64,000 nt of DNA from an uncultured Lachnospiraceae bacterium. Lineage in GTDB: Bacteria > Bacillota > Clostridia > Lachnospirales > Lachnospiraceae. The notes beneath the pieces were generated by a model. That model searched no databases. It was given only the letters and a program-made list of their open reading frames with translations, and was not told the DNA's origin. Of this stretch, positions 55,127 through 62,857 are shown piece by piece (position 1 is the stretch's first letter; each line of letters begins with the position of its first letter). Both the position numbers and the translations under genes were made by a program. The DNA lies in assembly GCA_902781505.1 (NCBI GenBank), contig CACZJL010000004.1:1-64000 (forward strand). Direction: 5' to 3'.

Positions 55127-55777
55127 ATGAGAGTTTTAGTACTGACCGGAGGAGATATCAATCTGTCCTGGGCAAATGAATTCATTCAGAAGAGAAATTA
55201 TGAAACGATCATCGCAGCGGACAGGGGCCTCGAGGCAGCAGATGCGCTGAATCTGAAGGTGAATCTGCTTGTCGGAGATTTTGATTCCGTGAAAAAGGAA
55301 GTCCTTGAAAAATACAGTGATGTTGAGACAAGAAAATTCCCGGAAGAAAAGGATGACACTGACACAGAAATCGCATTGAGAGCGGCTTTGGAGTATAAGT
55401 CGGAGAGCGGTCCGTTCCATATTGAAATCATTGGTGGATTTGGCTCGCGAATGGATCATGTTTTAACTAATCTGAATATTCTAAAAATTGGTGTTGACGC
55501 CGGAGTCGACGTCAGACTGTACGATAAATATAACTGTATTTACTTGAGAAATAAGCCATTTGCCATTCGCGTAGAGCATCGTTACGGAGACTTTGTTTCC
55601 TTTGTTCCATACACAGATTCGGTTGTAATGAGTCTTGCAGGCTTTAAATATCCACTTGCATTACAGGAGATTAAAAAGGGGGATTCCCTCCTGCAAAGTA
55701 ACGTCATTACTGGGCGCGACGGTATTGTCGACATTCAGAAGGGCATACTGGTATGCTGTGAAGCTAAAGAAATTTGA
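55127..55777 (+). CDS. thiN: Thiamine pyrophosphokinase
   Basis: A 216-residue enzyme converting thiamine to thiamine diphosphate. Visible are the N-terminal LTGGDINLSW, AADRGLEAA, LLVGDFDSV and FPEEKDDTDTEIAL, then a GGFGSRMDHVLTNLNIL motif; a C-terminal beta-domain binds thiamine. AGGAG before the ATG. It lies alone between the nfnB terminator and the decarboxylase promoter; no thiamine riboswitch is visible upstream. Confidence 0.94.
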   Translation: MRVLVLTGGDINLSWANEFIQKRNYETIIAADRGLEAADALNLKVNLLVGDFDSVKKEVLEKYSDVETRKFPEEKDDTDTEIALRAALEYKSESGPFHIEIIGGFGSRMDHVLTNLNILKIGVDAGVDVRLYDKYNCIYLRNKPFAIRVEHRYGDFVSFVPYTDSVVMSLAGFKYPLALQEIKKGDSLLQSNVITGRDGIVDIQKGILVCCEAKEI

Positions 55778-55830
55778 GAAATTGTATACAAAAATTCAGA
55801 AAATTAAGCGCTTACAATTGGCTAAAATGC

Positions 55831-55859
55831 TTGAAAATTGCGCAAGAATGTTATATTAT
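55831..55859 (+). promoter_or_regulatory. Promoter of the decarboxylase/transcarboxylase cluster
   Basis: TTGAAA 55831-55836, TATTAT 55854-55859, spacing 17, 38 bases before the start. Confidence 0.7.
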
Positions 55860-55897
55860 AGACAAAGTTGTTACGAATTAAATTAGGAGGGTCAACA

Positions 55898-57346
55898 ATG
55901 AGCAATTCAAACAAAATGTCAGCAATGGATCGCATTACGTCAATCCTTGATGACAACAGCTTTGTTGAGATTGGTGCCGGCGTTTCAGCCAGAGCAACTA
56001 ATTTCAACCTTCAGGAAAAGGCTGCTCCATCTGACGGTGTTATCACCGGATATGGTGTGATCAATGGCAGCCTCGTATACATTTACAGCCAGGATGCAGC
56101 TGTGTTAAACGGTTCTATCGGTGAGATGCATGCGAAGAAAATTGCAAGAATCTATGATCTTGCATTGAAAATGGGAGCTCCTGTAATTGGATTAATCGAT
56201 TCCACAGGTCTTCGCCTTCAGGAGGGAACAGACGCCTTAAATGGTTTCGGCAGCATTTACGCTAAGCAGAATCTTGCTTCCGGCGTAATTCCACAGATTA
56301 CGGCAGTATATGGTAAGTGTGGTGGTGGTCTTGCTGTGCTTACAGCAATGTCTGATTTCACATTTATGGAAGATGACGCAAAGCTTTTCGTAAACAGCCC
56401 AAATGCAGTTGACGGAAACTTCGAAGGAAAGCTTGATACAGCTTCTGCACAATTCCAGGCAGAGAATGGAAATGTTGATTTCACAGGAGATGAAGAGACA
56501 ATTGCCAATGCAATTCGTCAGCTCGTTTCCATCCTTCCTGCTAATAACGATGATGAAGCAGAGTATCTTGATTCTCAGGATGATTTAAACCGTGAAACAC
56601 CGGATATGGAAGCTGAGATTGCAGATCCTGCACTCGCGCTTGAAGATATCGCCGATGACGGTCTCTTCCTTGAGATTAAGTCTGAGTTTGCCAAGGAAAT
56701 GGTAGTTGGATTCCTGAAAGTTAACGGCGCAACCATTGGTGCTGTTGCAAACCGTGCAGCTACATTTGACGAGGAAGGCAATAAGGCAGAGGAGTTCGCA
56801 CCTGTACTTACAGTAGACGGTGCTTACAAGGCAGAGAGCTTCATTAAGTTCTGTGATGCTTTTGAAATCCCTATACTTTCCCTTACAAGTGTTGAAGGCT
56901 TCTGTTCCTGCGAAAGAGCGGAACGTGCCATTGCTAAGGCAGCTGCCAAGCTCGCATTTGCATTTGCCGATGCTTCTGTGCCAAAGGTTAATATTATTAC
57001 AGGAAAGTCCTTCGGTTCTGCTTATACAATCATGAACTCACAGGCACTTGGATGTGACCTGACTTATGCATGGCCATCCGCTTCCATCGGCATGATGGAT
57101 GCGACAGCTGCTGCTAAGATTATGTATGCAGATGAAATTGATTCTGCAGCAGATGTTCAGGAGAAGTTAAGAGAAAAGGCTTCCGAGTATGCAGCACTTC
57201 AGTCAGGAATTGAGCAGGCTGCAGCAAGAGGATACGTTGATACAATCATCGATCCTGCTGATACAAGAAAGTATGTTGCAGCTGCATTTGAAATGCTGTA
57301 CTCAAAGGCTGAGGATCGTCCTTTAAAGAAGCACGGCACAGTCTGA
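55898..57346 (+). CDS. Acyl-CoA carboxyltransferase subunit (MmdA / transcarboxylase 12S-like)
   Basis: A 482-residue carboxyltransferase of the crotonase-like acyl-CoA carboxylase family (methylmalonyl-CoA decarboxylase alpha, propionyl-CoA carboxylase beta, transcarboxylase 12S). Two halves show VYIYSQDAAVLNGSIG, GLIDSTGLRLQEG and GKCGGGLAVLTAMSDF (oxyanion-hole glycines), and in the second half IPILSLTSVEGF and NIITGKSFGSAYTIMNSQALG. It would move carboxyl between an acyl-CoA and biotin. ATG 55898 with AGGAGGG. The next gene starts 15 bases later. Substrate, methylmalonyl-CoA or another, is not determinable. Confidence 0.9.
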   Translation: MSNSNKMSAMDRITSILDDNSFVEIGAGVSARATNFNLQEKAAPSDGVITGYGVINGSLVYIYSQDAAVLNGSIGEMHAKKIARIYDLALKMGAPVIGLIDSTGLRLQEGTDALNGFGSIYAKQNLASGVIPQITAVYGKCGGGLAVLTAMSDFTFMEDDAKLFVNSPNAVDGNFEGKLDTASAQFQAENGNVDFTGDEETIANAIRQLVSILPANNDDEAEYLDSQDDLNRETPDMEAEIADPALALEDIADDGLFLEIKSEFAKEMVVGFLKVNGATIGAVANRAATFDEEGNKAEEFAPVLTVDGAYKAESFIKFCDAFEIPILSLTSVEGFCSCERAERAIAKAAAKLAFAFADASVPKVNIITGKSFGSAYTIMNSQALGCDLTYAWPSASIGMMDATAAAKIMYADEIDSAADVQEKLREKASEYAALQSGIEQAAARGYVDTIIDPADTRKYVAAAFEMLYSKAEDRPLKKHGTV

Positions 57347-57360
57347 TTTTGGAGGTAACT

Positions 57361-58164
57361 ATGAGAAAGAATATCGCTAAGAAGATGCTTATTCTTGTCT
57401 CTATGCTTGTTTTCTGTTTCTCATTAACAGCATGCGCTACACCAATTTCCAATAATGCGGTAAAGAAGAGCACGAAGGAGATTAAGGTAGAAGCAAGTGA
57501 GAAGGCCATTGAAGAATGGGCTTCAGCAATGATTCTGTATCTGAACAGTCAGACTACGGAACAGATTAAGCAGCAGGCAGAGAATTCAGTATCTTTAAAT
57601 GAGATTTTTGGCAAGCAGTTCGTTATTAATCAGGACGGAGTAAATGCCAAGACAGTAGAGTTCTACAACAGCTGGGCGAAATCAAGATCAGATCTTGGTA
57701 AGTTAGTAAGCATCGACAGCATGAAGGTAGAAACAAGTTCCGTAACCGGAACACTTTGTGTAGTAACTGTTAATGCTACGTATGAACAGCGTTCGTGCGT
57801 ATTCGAATTAACAATCAATGACAAGTATGAGCTTGAAGGTGGTGCTATCAATCCGAACTTCACAATGTTACAGAAGGTAGGAAAGGCATTAATCAACACC
57901 TTAATCGGTAGCGGTACAGTATTCCTTGTACTGATCTTTATGAGCTTTGTAATTTCACTTCTTCAGAATGTAAACAAGATCGGAAAGAAGAAGGAAACAG
58001 CCGCACCTGCTGCAGCTCCTGCTCCGGCAGTTAGTGCAACGGTTGAAGAAGTTATTGATGATACAGAATTAATCGCAGTCATCGCAGCTGCAATTGCAGC
58101 ACAGGAAGGCGTTCGCCCAGATCAGCTGGTCGTTCGTTCAATCAGAAAGTCCAGAAGGAGATAA
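57361..58164 (+). CDS. OadG-like gamma subunit fused to a lipoprotein domain
   Basis: A 267-residue protein. Residues 1-25 form a signal peptide with lipobox LTAC (Cys 25). An extracytoplasmic domain spans about 30-175. One membrane helix (about 183-203) and an Ala/Pro-rich linker lead to a cytosolic tail with ELIAVIAAAIAAQEG and a basic end RSIRKSRRR, as in OadG/MmdD subunits. Classical OadG is under 100 residues with only the helix and tail, so this form carries an extra surface domain, DUF3887-like in character. ATG 57361 with GGAGG upstream. The biotin carrier gene follows in 6 bases. Confidence 0.82.
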   Translation: MRKNIAKKMLILVSMLVFCFSLTACATPISNNAVKKSTKEIKVEASEKAIEEWASAMILYLNSQTTEQIKQQAENSVSLNEIFGKQFVINQDGVNAKTVEFYNSWAKSRSDLGKLVSIDSMKVETSSVTGTLCVVTVNATYEQRSCVFELTINDKYELEGGAINPNFTMLQKVGKALINTLIGSGTVFLVLIFMSFVISLLQNVNKIGKKKETAAPAAAPAPAVSATVEEVIDDTELIAVIAAAIAAQEGVRPDQLVVRSIRKSRRR

Positions 58165-58170
58165 TTTATT

Positions 58171-58545
58171 ATGAAGAGCTATACAATCACAGTTAATGGC
58201 GTAGCATATGATGTTACAGTTGAAGAAAATACAAACGGAGCTGTATCTGCTCCGGCTGCACAGGCACCAAAGGCAGCTTCAAAGGCTGCACCAAAGGTTG
58301 CACCAAAGGCAGCAGCAAGTACAGGTGCCGGTTCTGTTAAGATTGCTTCCCCGATGCAGGGTAAGATTTTAAAGACTCCTGTTTCAGTCGGTCAGGCTGT
58401 TAAGAAGGGCGATGTTTTAATCGTTCTTGAAGCTATGAAGATGGAAAATGAAATCCAGGCCGAGAAGGATGGAACAGTAGCTTCTGTAGATGTTTCTGTA
58501 GGTGATTCTGTAGAAACAGGTCAGGTTCTTATCACATTAAACTAA
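58171..58545 (+). CDS. Biotin carboxyl carrier protein of the decarboxylase
   Basis: A 124-residue biotin carrier. N-terminal residues 1-22 are a short beta segment, then an Ala/Pro/Lys-rich swinging linker (about 25-52), then the biotinyl domain (about 55-124). The biotin lysine is K90 in EAMKMENEI. It resembles MmdC/GcdC and the 1.3S subunit of transcarboxylase. It would shuttle carboxyl between the carboxyltransferases and the sodium-pump beta subunit. Confidence 0.95.
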   Translation: MKSYTITVNGVAYDVTVEENTNGAVSAPAAQAPKAASKAAPKVAPKAAASTGAGSVKIASPMQGKILKTPVSVGQAVKKGDVLIVLEAMKMENEIQAEKDGTVASVDVSVGDSVETGQVLITLN

Positions 58546-58618
58546 GAAAGATAAATGCAAGTAAGTCCTGATTTTCCTTAAAGAGAAGCGGGACATGACT
58601 GTATTTGAGGAGGTTAAA

Positions 58619-59770
58619 ATGAATTATATTGTTGAAACATTAGGAAACCTCGTACAGCAGACAGCATTCTTCGGACTTTCCTGGGGTAATTACCTGATGA
58701 TTATTATCGCACTGGTATTTATGTACCTTGCGATTGCAAGAGATTACGAACCATTACTTTTAGTTCCAATCTCCTTTGGTATGCTTCTGGTTAATATGTA
58801 TCCGGATATTATGCTTACGATTGAAGATTCCACAAGCGGAGTCGGCGGTCTTTTGCATTACTTCTATCTGCTGGATGAGTGGAGTATCTTACCATCTCTG
58901 ATTTTCATGGGCGTCGGAGCCATGACAGACTTCGCACCTCTGATTGCGAACCCTGCAAGCTTCCTGTTAGGAGCTGCTGCACAGTTCGGTATTTACATTG
59001 CTTACCTGATGGCTATTGTATTTGGTTTCCCTGATAAGGCGGCTGCAGCAATCTCTATCATTGGTGGTGCTGATGGTCCTACATCCATCTTCCTTGCCGG
59101 TAAGCTTGGACAGACCAGATACTTAGGACCAATCGCCGTTGCGGCATATTCTTATATGTCTCTGGTTCCGATTATTCAGCCACCAATCATGAAGCTATTT
59201 ACAACAGAAGAGCAGAGAAAGATTCGTATGGGCCAGCTTCGTCCGGTTTCAAAGCTTGAGAAGATTCTCTTCCCAATCGTTGTAACCATCGTTGTTGTAT
59301 TAATCTTACCTACAACAGCGCCTCTGGTAGGTATGCTGATGCTTGGTAACCTCTTTAAGGAATCCGGTGTTGTTCCTCAGTTAACGGAAACAGCAAGCAA
59401 TGCTCTTATGTACATCGTTGTTATCATCCTCGGCACATCCGTAGGTGCTACAACAAGTGCTAAGGCATTCTTAAATCTTGATACTTTAAAGATTCTTGCA
59501 CTTGGTCTGATTGCATTTGCCGTTGGTACAGCTTCCGGCGTAATCCTTGGTAAGGTATTGATGAAGGCCACTCATGGCAAGGTTAATCCGCTGATCGGTT
59601 CCGCCGGTGTATCTGCCGTACCTATGGCAGCCCGTGTATCTCAGAAAGTTGGACAGGAAGCTGATCCCGGTAACTTCCTTCTGATGCATGCGATGGGACC
59701 AAATGTAGCCGGTGTTATCGGTACCGCGGTTGCGGCCGGTACATTCATGGCAATGTTCGGAGTAGTTTAA
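58619..59770 (+). CDS. Sodium ion-translocating decarboxylase beta subunit
   Basis: A 383-residue polytopic membrane protein of the OadB/MmdB/GcdB family, which frees CO2 from carboxybiotin and pumps sodium out. Conserved membrane-embedded motifs are visible: IANPASFLLGAAAQFGI, ISIIGGADGPTSIFLAGKLG (with the essential Asp), YSYMSLVPIIQPP and, near the end, GVSAVPMAARVSQKVG and NFLLMHAMGPNVAGVIG. ATG 58619 follows GAGGAGG. Its presence is the main evidence that the cluster conserves energy. Confidence 0.95.
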   Translation: MNYIVETLGNLVQQTAFFGLSWGNYLMIIIALVFMYLAIARDYEPLLLVPISFGMLLVNMYPDIMLTIEDSTSGVGGLLHYFYLLDEWSILPSLIFMGVGAMTDFAPLIANPASFLLGAAAQFGIYIAYLMAIVFGFPDKAAAAISIIGGADGPTSIFLAGKLGQTRYLGPIAVAAYSYMSLVPIIQPPIMKLFTTEEQRKIRMGQLRPVSKLEKILFPIVVTIVVVLILPTTAPLVGMLMLGNLFKESGVVPQLTETASNALMYIVVIILGTSVGATTSAKAFLNLDTLKILALGLIAFAVGTASGVILGKVLMKATHGKVNPLIGSAGVSAVPMAARVSQKVGQEADPGNFLLMHAMGPNVAGVIGTAVAAGTFMAMFGVV

Positions 59771-59849
59771 TTTTCTTCATCTGCGGCGCTCTGGCTGCAG
59801 TCGCAGATGAGTTTTTGATACGTGTAAAGCCAGAAGAAAGAGGAATTTT

Positions 59850-61265
59850 ATGTCTGAAGAGATTAGAAAGGTTGGCATTACAGAGACAGTCCTTCGTGAC
59901 GCTCATCAGTCTCTGATTGCTACCAGAATGACAACAGAGCAGATGCTTCCAATCATCGAAACAATGGATCAGGTTGGATATCATTCTGTAGAGTGCTGGG
60001 GTGGTGCTACATTTGATGCATGCCTTCGTTTCCTCAAGGAAGATCCTTGGGACAGATTAAGAAAGTTAAGGGATGGCTTTAAGAACACAAAGCTTCAGAT
60101 GCTGTTCAGAGGCCAGAATATCTTAGGTTACAATCATTATTCAGATGATGTTGTAGAGTACTTCGTTCAGAAGTCCCTTGCAAACGGTATCGACATCATT
60201 CGTATTTTCGACTGTGTTAATGACTTAAGAAACCTTGAAACAGCTGTTAAGGCTGCCAAGAAGGAAAATGGTCATGCACAGATTGCCCTTTCCTACACAA
60301 CAGGTGATGCGTACACACTTGAGTATTGGGAGAAGATGGCCAAGGACATCGAAGAGATGGGCGCAGATTCCATCTGTGTAAAGGATATGGCAGGACTCTT
60401 ACTTCCAGATAAGGCATTCGAGCTTGTATCTGCATTAAAGAGAGGTTCTAAGCTTCCTGTTCAGATGCATACACATTACACATCCGGTATGGCTTCAATG
60501 ACTTACCTTAAGGCAATTGAAGCAGGTGCTGACGTAATTGATACAGCCATCTCACCATTTTCCATGGGTACATCACAGCCTGCTACAGAAGTTATGGTTA
60601 AGGCTCTTGAAGGAACAAAGTTTGATACAGGAATTGATCAGGCTCTCCTTTCAAAGATTGCAGATCACTTCCAGCCACAGCGCGAAGAAGCTATCGAATC
60701 CGGCCTTATGTCCACAAAGGTTCTTGGTATCAATATCAACACTCTTCGTTACCAGGTTCCAGGTGGTATGTTATCCAACCTGATTTCTCAGCTTAAGAAT
60801 GCAAATGCCTTAGATCGCTTAGGTGATGTTTTAGAGGAAATCCCAAGAGTTCGTAAGGACTTCGGTGAACCACCTCTTGTAACTCCATCTTCTCAGATCG
60901 TAGGTACACAGGCTGTATTAAATGTTCTGAACGGCGAGCGTTACAAGATGATCACAAAGGAATCGAAGAAGTTCTTAAAGGGTGAATTTGGTCAGACTGT
61001 AAAGCCATTCAATGCTGAAGTTCAGAAGAAGGCCATCGGTGATGAAGAGCCGATTACCTGCAGACCTGCAGACCTAATTGCTCCACAGCTTGAGGATTTA
61101 AAGAAGAACCCGGTTGTTCAGAAGTATCAGCAGCAGGAAGAGGATATTCTTTCCTACGCACTGTTCCCTCAGGTAGCAGAAGAGTTCTTTAAGTACAGAG
61201 AAGCACAGCAGACAAAGGTTGATCCTGCTGTAGCTGACACAGAAAACAAAGCATATCCAGTCTGA
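59850..61265 (+). CDS. Pyruvate/oxaloacetate carboxyltransferase (OadA / transcarboxylase 5S-like), no biotin domain
   Basis: A 471-residue carboxyltransferase of the TIM-barrel type. It has ETVLRDAHQSLIATRM (active-site Asp and His), QMLFRGQNILGY, ADSICVKDMAGLL (the lysine carbamylated in this family), a QMHTHYTSG metal motif, and GTSQPATEVMVKAL. It stops after the carboxyltransferase and small C-terminal helical region, without the biotinyl domain of full OadA, so it would use the separate carrier at 58171. It exchanges carboxyl between biotin and pyruvate/oxaloacetate. AAAGAGG before the ATG; terminator at 61278. Confidence 0.93.
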   Translation: MSEEIRKVGITETVLRDAHQSLIATRMTTEQMLPIIETMDQVGYHSVECWGGATFDACLRFLKEDPWDRLRKLRDGFKNTKLQMLFRGQNILGYNHYSDDVVEYFVQKSLANGIDIIRIFDCVNDLRNLETAVKAAKKENGHAQIALSYTTGDAYTLEYWEKMAKDIEEMGADSICVKDMAGLLLPDKAFELVSALKRGSKLPVQMHTHYTSGMASMTYLKAIEAGADVIDTAISPFSMGTSQPATEVMVKALEGTKFDTGIDQALLSKIADHFQPQREEAIESGLMSTKVLGININTLRYQVPGGMLSNLISQLKNANALDRLGDVLEEIPRVRKDFGEPPLVTPSSQIVGTQAVLNVLNGERYKMITKESKKFLKGEFGQTVKPFNAEVQKKAIGDEEPITCRPADLIAPQLEDLKKNPVVQKYQQQEEDILSYALFPQVAEEFFKYREAQQTKVDPAVADTENKAYPV

Positions 61266-61277
61266 GTGCTGGTATTT

Positions 61278-61312
61278 AGCCCCGAGGCCTGACGGTCTTT
61301 GGGGCTTTTTTC
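61278..61312 (+). terminator. Terminator closing the decarboxylase cluster
   Basis: AGCCCCGAGGCC pairs with the GTCTTTGGGGCT arm around TGAC, followed by TTTTTTC. Confidence 0.75.
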
Positions 61313-61454
61313 GTTGGAGTACTGTCGCCGCATGTCAGTGTGGCTGAGTGGTGCCTGCGCCATGGTTGTGAATGGGAATCCTGTTTTAGCTTGCATGGAT
61401 GTCTGTCCGATGAAGATTGAGACGCTCGCCTCCATCGTAAAGATGAACCGCTGA
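61311..61454 (+). pseudogene. Remnant of a fumarate reductase/succinate dehydrogenase iron-sulfur subunit
   Basis: A short frame ending in TGA at 61452-61454 translates to a fragment with SGACAMVVNGNPVLAC and then MKIETLAS. This follows the [2Fe-2S] region of FrdB/SdhB (pattern C-G-S-C-x-M-x-x-N-x-x-P-x-L-A-C, then M-K-V-E-A-L), but the expected central cysteine is replaced by Trp or shifted and only about 45 residues remain. There is no ribosome binding site before the ATG at 61332. It begins right at the tail of a terminator. Recognition is by eye. Confidence 0.5.
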
Positions 61455-61507
61455 TTTTTGCGGGAGTTTGTGGTATGATTAGAACACTAATGCGTGGAGG
61501 TTTTGGT

Positions 61508-62857
61508 TTGAGTGAGGTAATTATTGTCGGCGGTGGTGCTGCCGGTATGATCTGTGCCTGTGAGGCGGCAAAGGCCGGTCACAGAGTCACATTGATTGAA
61601 AAGAATGAAAAGCTGGGTAAGAAGATTTATATCACCGGTAAGGGAAGGGGAAATCTGACCAATGCCGGAGATCAGGACACATTGATGAAGAGTGTCGTTT
61701 CAAATCCTAAGTTTTTATATTCCGCATTTGGTGAGTTCAATAACTTTGATACCATGGATTATTTTACGAATCTTGGTCTGAAAATCAAGGTGGAGCGAGG
61801 GGGCAGAGTTTTTCCGGAATCCGACCATGCCTATGAAATTACCGATGTGTTAAAGAGAGAAATGAATCGACTGAAGGTGAAGGTGGTTTTAAATACTGCA
61901 GTGAAGGGGCTGATTACCGAGCAGGTTGCGGCGGCCGGGGTAGCTGGCGAAGCGGCTGGTACAGCAGCTGACGAAGAGAAGGCTTTAAAGCAGGATAGGT
62001 GGGCTGCGAAAAAGAAGAATAAGGGTCCGGTGAAGAAGATTACCGGTGTACTTATCAGCCGTGGGCCGATGAGCAAGCCTGAAGAATTAAGAGCCGATGC
62101 CGTTGTTCTTGCAACGGGTGGCTTAAGTTACCCAAGCACAGGTTCTACAGGCGACGGACACAGGTGGGCTGTAGAGCTTGGACTTGCAGTGACGGACACA
62201 CATCCGGCGCTGGTTGCGATGAAGACTAAAGAGGATTTTAAGGATATGGCGGGCCTTTCTTTAAAGAACTGTGCCATTACCGTATTTGACGGAACGAAGA
62301 AGGTGTATGAGGATTTCGGTGAAATGCTCTTTACACATACAGGCGTTTCAGGTCCTATGATTTTAAGTGCATCAAGCCACTGTGCAAAGCGCGTGTCAGA
62401 CCACGAATTGAGTCTGAAGCTCGATTTAAAGCCTGCTTTAGACAGACAGCAACTTGATGCAAGAATTTTAAGAGACTGGGAGAATGAAAAGAACAGAGAC
62501 TTTGAAAATTCTCTTTCAGGACTTCTTCCAAGAAGCATTATTCCGGCTGTTGTTAAACAGACCGGTGTCACACCTGGCAAGAAAGTCCATGATATCACAA
62601 AAGAAGAACGTGAGAAATTAGTTGAGGCCGTGAAGGCATTTGCCATGACCTTAACAGGGCTTGAAGGCTATGAACAGGCAATCATCACGCAGGGCGGCGT
62701 TAAGGTTTCAGAAATCAACCCGAAGACAATGGAAAGCAAAAAGGTTTCCGGCCTCTTCGTTGTTGGCGAACTGCTTGATGTCGATGCCGTAACAGGCGGA
62801 TTTAACTTAACAATCGCATGGTCGACAGGAGTCGCAGCGGGAAGAAATATCAGATAA
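61508..62857 (+). CDS. HI0933/BaiN-like NAD(P)/FAD-dependent oxidoreductase
   Basis: A 449-residue flavoprotein of the HI0933 family. It shows VIIVGGGAAGMICACEAAKAGH (FAD Rossmann), GRGNLTNAG, VLATGGLSYPSTGSTGDGH, FTHTGVSGP and the C-terminal GLFVVGELLDVDAVTGGFNL. A Lys/Ala-rich insert lies at about 145-175. The reaction of most members is unknown; one group reduces bile acids. TTG 61508 with TGGAGG 7 bases upstream is chosen; ATG 61475 with GGGAG upstream is the alternative and would add 11 residues. Confidence 0.88.
   Translation: MSEVIIVGGGAAGMICACEAAKAGHRVTLIEKNEKLGKKIYITGKGRGNLTNAGDQDTLMKSVVSNPKFLYSAFGEFNNFDTMDYFTNLGLKIKVERGGRVFPESDHAYEITDVLKREMNRLKVKVVLNTAVKGLITEQVAAAGVAGEAAGTAADEEKALKQDRWAAKKKNKGPVKKITGVLISRGPMSKPEELRADAVVLATGGLSYPSTGSTGDGHRWAVELGLAVTDTHPALVAMKTKEDFKDMAGLSLKNCAITVFDGTKKVYEDFGEMLFTHTGVSGPMILSASSHCAKRVSDHELSLKLDLKPALDRQQLDARILRDWENEKNRDFENSLSGLLPRSIIPAVVKQTGVTPGKKVHDITKEEREKLVEAVKAFAMTLTGLEGYEQAIITQGGVKVSEINPKTMESKKVSGLFVVGELLDVDAVTGGFNLTIAWSTGVAAGRNIR

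Follow-up and report, generated by a model that had tools for sequence, protein, structure and literature searches.

A short reading frame at positions 61299-61454 of the plus strand (51 residues, TTG start) is, judged from its sequence, a real and ordinary pseudogene remnant. The window, i.e., the whole stretch of Lachnospiraceae DNA that we analyzed, is 64,000 nucleotides long, and the relic sits in it between two unrelated intact genes. We put the probability at roughly 0.93 that this relic is a non-functional remnant of frdB, the gene for the fumarate reductase/succinate dehydrogenase iron-sulfur subunit (FrdB), left by an internal deletion together with loss of the front part of the gene. 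It holds two pieces of FrdB in the right order and in the right frame: residues 18-32 resemble the [2Fe-2S] loop, whose share comes to only about 15-27 residues in all, and residues 30-51 resemble the extreme C terminus, including the final CxxxCP motif and a stop codon at its natural position. This two-part match supports the sequence-only reading, which had called the stretch a decayed FrdB fragment. That reading had also assigned some 45 residues to the [2Fe-2S] loop; the loop core stands, but residues 30-51 are the C-terminal end instead, and the anatomy now appears clearer than before, with two distant parts of one gene joined.

The similarity to FrdB/SdhB claimed earlier is beyond chance and was recovered with Pfam Fer2_3 (E value = 8.9e-4, 19.7 bits, under the cut-off of 27), with NCBIfam PRK13552 (E value = 8.9e-5, under the cut-off), with PDB chain 5xmj_B (E value = 1.2e-4), and with a home-made profile of 14 FrdB proteins that was run over all six frames of the window. 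This profile found a single strong place (E value = 1.8e-9, 34.1 bits), matched in two ordered stretches at profile positions 65-80 and 202-223. A second profile (A1) placed the C-terminal part of the relic at positions 201-222 of 222, and several PDB SdhB/FrdB chains aligned to the relic twice, once at the loop and once, weakly, at the C-terminal CP motif.

Directly upstream of the relic lies an intrinsic-terminator-like hairpin with a T run (61278..61312, plus strand, fold of -19.5 kcal/mol) that closes the decarboxylase cluster; the hairpin proper (61278-61306) had a z score of -3.96, with 1 of 200 shuffles as good, and a consensus terminator scanner did not list it. The interval 61311..61349 (plus strand), in the frame of the loop core, probably represents a damaged front portion of the [2Fe-2S] loop, with extra residues and altered ligand positions. 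We regard the FrdB homology of this interval as tentative; the alignment of residues 7-16 of the relic to the WECSC part of intact FrdB is weak. The loop core, GAC...LAC (61350..61394, plus strand), matched the first of the two profile stretches (i-E value = 3.2e-4) as well as PDB SdhB/FrdB chains, and the C-terminal end, LACMDVCPMKIETLAS...NR (61386..61454, plus strand), matched the second (i-E value = 6.7e-7). The two share LAC codons at 61386..61394 (plus strand), which both profile stretches cover and which mark the junction of the internal deletion. A structured RNA at the same place was considered and rejected, the relic folding no better than its shuffles (z = -0.13), and Rfam matches for an RNA gene beneath it all fell below gathering scores and lay mostly on the terminator.

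When the 51 residues were searched against 299 family genomes, matches were found in 14, the window's own genome included. The best outside matches paired residues 28-51 with the C-terminal end of FrdB rather than with the loop, and the top one was the FrdB C terminus of genome G254 (71% identity over 24 residues, E value = 5.4e-7). In each of three genomes (G144, G176, and G261), a single intact reading frame matched the loop half of the relic (about residues 15-34) as well as its C-terminal half. With the FrdB/SdhB branch of G254, G220, G129, and G144, the relic has in common the loop core GACAM.VN..P.LAC and the C terminus LxCMDVCPMKI.T.AS...NR, in equal order and frame; unlike these proteins, it has no N-terminal part, is short of about 124 internal codons, and no longer has its loop cysteines intact.

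The damage to the loop cysteines agrees with the earlier description, confident alignment being limited to the final two ligand positions, GAC and LAC. The relic contains four cysteines, three of them (20, 32, and 36) at ligand positions conserved in FrdB, and does not have a [2Fe-2S] domain with four cysteine ligands. It also lacks the CxxCxxCxxxCP motif of the ferredoxin-like domain, which falls inside the internal deletion; the C-terminal CxxxCP motif and the C-terminal end of FrdB are present. Reading by eye revealed no Shine-Dalgarno-like sequence before the TTG at 61299 or before later in-frame ATGs, in keeping with the earlier remark that a ribosome binding site is missing. The relic corresponds to only part of a gene that is intact in relatives and carries lesions that abolish function, as in a pseudogene. 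Since most cysteine ligands of the three FrdB clusters are gone and no start signal is visible, the remaining 51-codon scrap is most likely inert and does nothing. Its frame is still open over 51 codons, and a random stretch of such length can be open by chance.

Next, we looked at the spacing of the two joined sites in intact genes. From the loop LAC to the C-terminal L[SA]C, the 13 measurable genes have 123-134 codons, with 124 the commonest value, which marks the relic as the product of an internal deletion. The FrdB of G270 ends at the same residue as the relic, and most other FrdB proteins stop no more than a few residues away. The ends of the deletion fall on the LAC/L[SA]C codons, which form short direct repeats in most intact genes: among the 12 bases around the two sites, 4-10 positions agree. 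For 10 of the 14 intact genes, this agreement ranks in the top 5% of the same gene's in-frame codon pairs, while in the other 4 it lies outside the top 5% and the repeats are weak. Some of the agreement is expected from the similar residues encoded at the two sites. The internal deletion would fit slippage between short direct repeats, although this cause is unproven.

These observations are compatible with a history in which an frdAB pair formerly occupied this place, following the terminator of the decarboxylase cluster and preceding the HI0933-like gene, and turned dispensable. One deletion would then have taken the middle of frdB, probably by slippage between the repeats that encode the LAC/L[SA]C sites, and another would have taken frdA and the start of frdB, as far as the terminator. 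The former pair is inferred, as no close relative was found to have an intact frdB at the relic's site. The genome is a draft (1.89 Mb, 33 contigs, 98.76% complete), and an assembly error may lie behind the relic. Pseudogenes are described as widespread in prokaryotes, and RecA-independent deletion between short direct repeats has been described (PMC522871, PMC5426353). The relic is like such pseudogene remnants and direct-repeat deletions, being a truncated intergenic scrap with short repeats at its junction, with no difference in kind. A literature search found no account of fumarate reductase loss or pseudogenes in Lachnospiraceae, a result that does not show that none has been printed.

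Decay of frdB is not unique to the relic's genome, as indicated by a second, independently broken frdB in G266 (L064:9653-10165, G266:C14). This gene runs into a stop after about 130 codons and has lost an internal segment, which joins the VCP of its ferredoxin motif to the C-terminal end; the CP-to-CP junction was read from the translation. It would be rather speculative to suppose that the repeated iron-sulfur motifs of FrdB make frdB prone to motif-to-motif internal deletion in separate lineages, and equally so to count the LAC-to-L[SA]C junction of the relic and the two CP motifs of G266 as instances of it. Across the family, any match to the FrdB profile was seen in 42 of 397 genomes, short homologues and remnants counted. 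The gene is patchy in the family and its loss probably common, so that one more relic changes little; the relic is a small, clear case of the erasure of a fumarate reductase gene.

Four further candidates for decayed frdB (G226, G289, G214, and G351) were rejected. They have open frames of roughly 100-120 codons that cover the [2Fe-2S] part only (L198:2103-2408, L199:2436-2747, L197:2274-2636 on the minus strand, and L200:1183-1545), and their matches seemed to have stops inside because the match extended beyond where the frame ends. In the first three, the short frame has a flavoprotein frame of about 604-618 codons next to it. The short frames look like a natural small partner rather than decayed FrdB. 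For the weak family matches in G118, G155, G157, and G379, the analysis covered the table rows only.

The relic was the sole Fer2_3 match in its own genome, itself under the cut-off, and this search gave no second FrdB. A partner frdA for the relic was absent both next door and elsewhere in the genome, where nothing was found for FrdA beyond L-aspartate oxidase (NadB) and a homologue of adenylylsulfate reductase alpha. The best match to the FrdA query passes the NCBIfam cut-off for L-aspartate oxidase (543.6 > 472) and lies in a frame that precedes a NadC-like frame (name read from the translation); two weak places followed. The adenylylsulfate reductase alpha homologue (L154:1480-3466, G000:C24; 862.9 bits, cut-off of 557) is followed by ferredoxin-like and sulfate adenylyltransferase-like frames, as read from their translations.

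Two other explanations concern the relic itself. A short cysteine-rich frame could resemble iron-sulfur motifs by chance, in line with single-model E values that are modest and under the curated cut-offs; however, the family profile gave an E value of 1.8e-9 with two stretches in the right order, and its 34.1 bits compare with 8.2 bits for the runner-up real segment of the window and with 11.2 bits for the best of 40 dinucleotide-shuffled windows, which leaves chance with next to no probability. The relic could also encode a small protein that is still alive, namely an iron-sulfur peptide in which the loop is joined to the C-terminal motif and which carries the four cysteines. An open, in-phase frame and three cysteines at conserved ligand positions are what such a peptide would have, but the missing ribosome binding site, the placement between a terminator and the next gene, and the damaged loop all speak against it. 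Moreover, the relic occurs in 1 of the 11 genus genomes, none of the others carrying a copy, and wherever both halves were seen in another family match, the gene is full length. We therefore consider a living peptide very unlikely and retain the frdB remnant.

A third explanation gives the remnant a meaning beyond its own gene. The sequence-only reading took it as a possible scar of the lost first half of the succinate-propionate route, the fumarate reductase step of a pathway that ends in the neighboring methylmalonyl-CoA decarboxylase, and proposed a changed role for the cluster. The adjoining cluster does contain a sodium-pump beta subunit, which is over the cut-off of the general sodium-pump model, along with an MmdA-like subunit. 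However, methylmalonyl-CoA mutase was found neither in the relic's own genome nor in any of the 11 genus genomes, by a search that was positive in 8 of 14 control genomes, and this makes a succinate-propionate reading of the cluster improbable, relic or not. By the NCBIfam equivalog cut-offs, the 5S-like gene qualifies as oxaloacetate decarboxylase alpha (752.4 > 718) but not as the methylmalonyl-CoA carboxytransferase 5S subunit (557.6 < 827); the MmdA-like gene is far under the mmdA cut-off (426.3 < 998.8), and the MmdC-like protein is under its own. In addition, close 5S homologues occur in three genus mates without FrdB over the cut-off, and the check suggested earlier, whether relatives have an intact frdB separating the 5S-like gene from the HI0933-like gene, gave a negative answer in 11 loci. 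A lost pathway is accordingly a most improbable account of the scrap, and membership of the cluster in a succinate-propionate route is unlikely. By its sequence, the frdB remnant appears to say little about the neighboring decarboxylase genes, and its story cautions against taking them for a propionate pathway.

The distribution of the two genes within the genus likewise failed to tie the relic to the cluster. FrdB over the cut-off was found in 4 of 11 genus genomes (G004, G007, G009, and G010), all with another type of C terminus (DICPAGIPV or NICPAGIDV, versus DVCPMKI), with frdB located elsewhere and with no close 5S homologue. Close 5S homologues (78-100%) were found in 4 of 11 (G000, G001, G003, and G008), and G002 had merely a 41% match inside a 1140-codon frame. 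No genus genome had both FrdB over the cut-off and a close 5S gene (0/11), which is a trend only, with 6 of the 11 genomes less than 90% complete.

Finally, we compared loci around the HI0933-like gene. None of the 90 loci scanned with the FrdB profile gave a match. They include the 11 other loci with a 5S-like gene less than 6 kb upstream of the HI0933-like gene (9 of 80 loci plus G003 and G008), in none of which frdB lay between the two. In nine of these, from Lachnospiraceae or Clostridia, 69 to 2480 bases separate the two genes; in a twelfth locus, L114, the HI0933-like gene is preceded by a 5S homologue at a distance of about 7.7 kb. We also compared window 55127-62857 with L044, L046, L047-L053, and L071. 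In the window, TPK-like and HI0933-like genes flank the decarboxylase cluster, and in seven genus genomes (G002, G004, G005, G006, G007, G009, and G010), where the cluster is absent, a thiamine pyrophosphokinase-like gene directly precedes the HI0933-like gene. In G003 and G008, both of the relic's genus, 5.5-5.8 kb separate the 5S-like gene from the HI0933-like gene, and this space contains two frames named from their translations, a MATE-type transporter and a large permease-like one.
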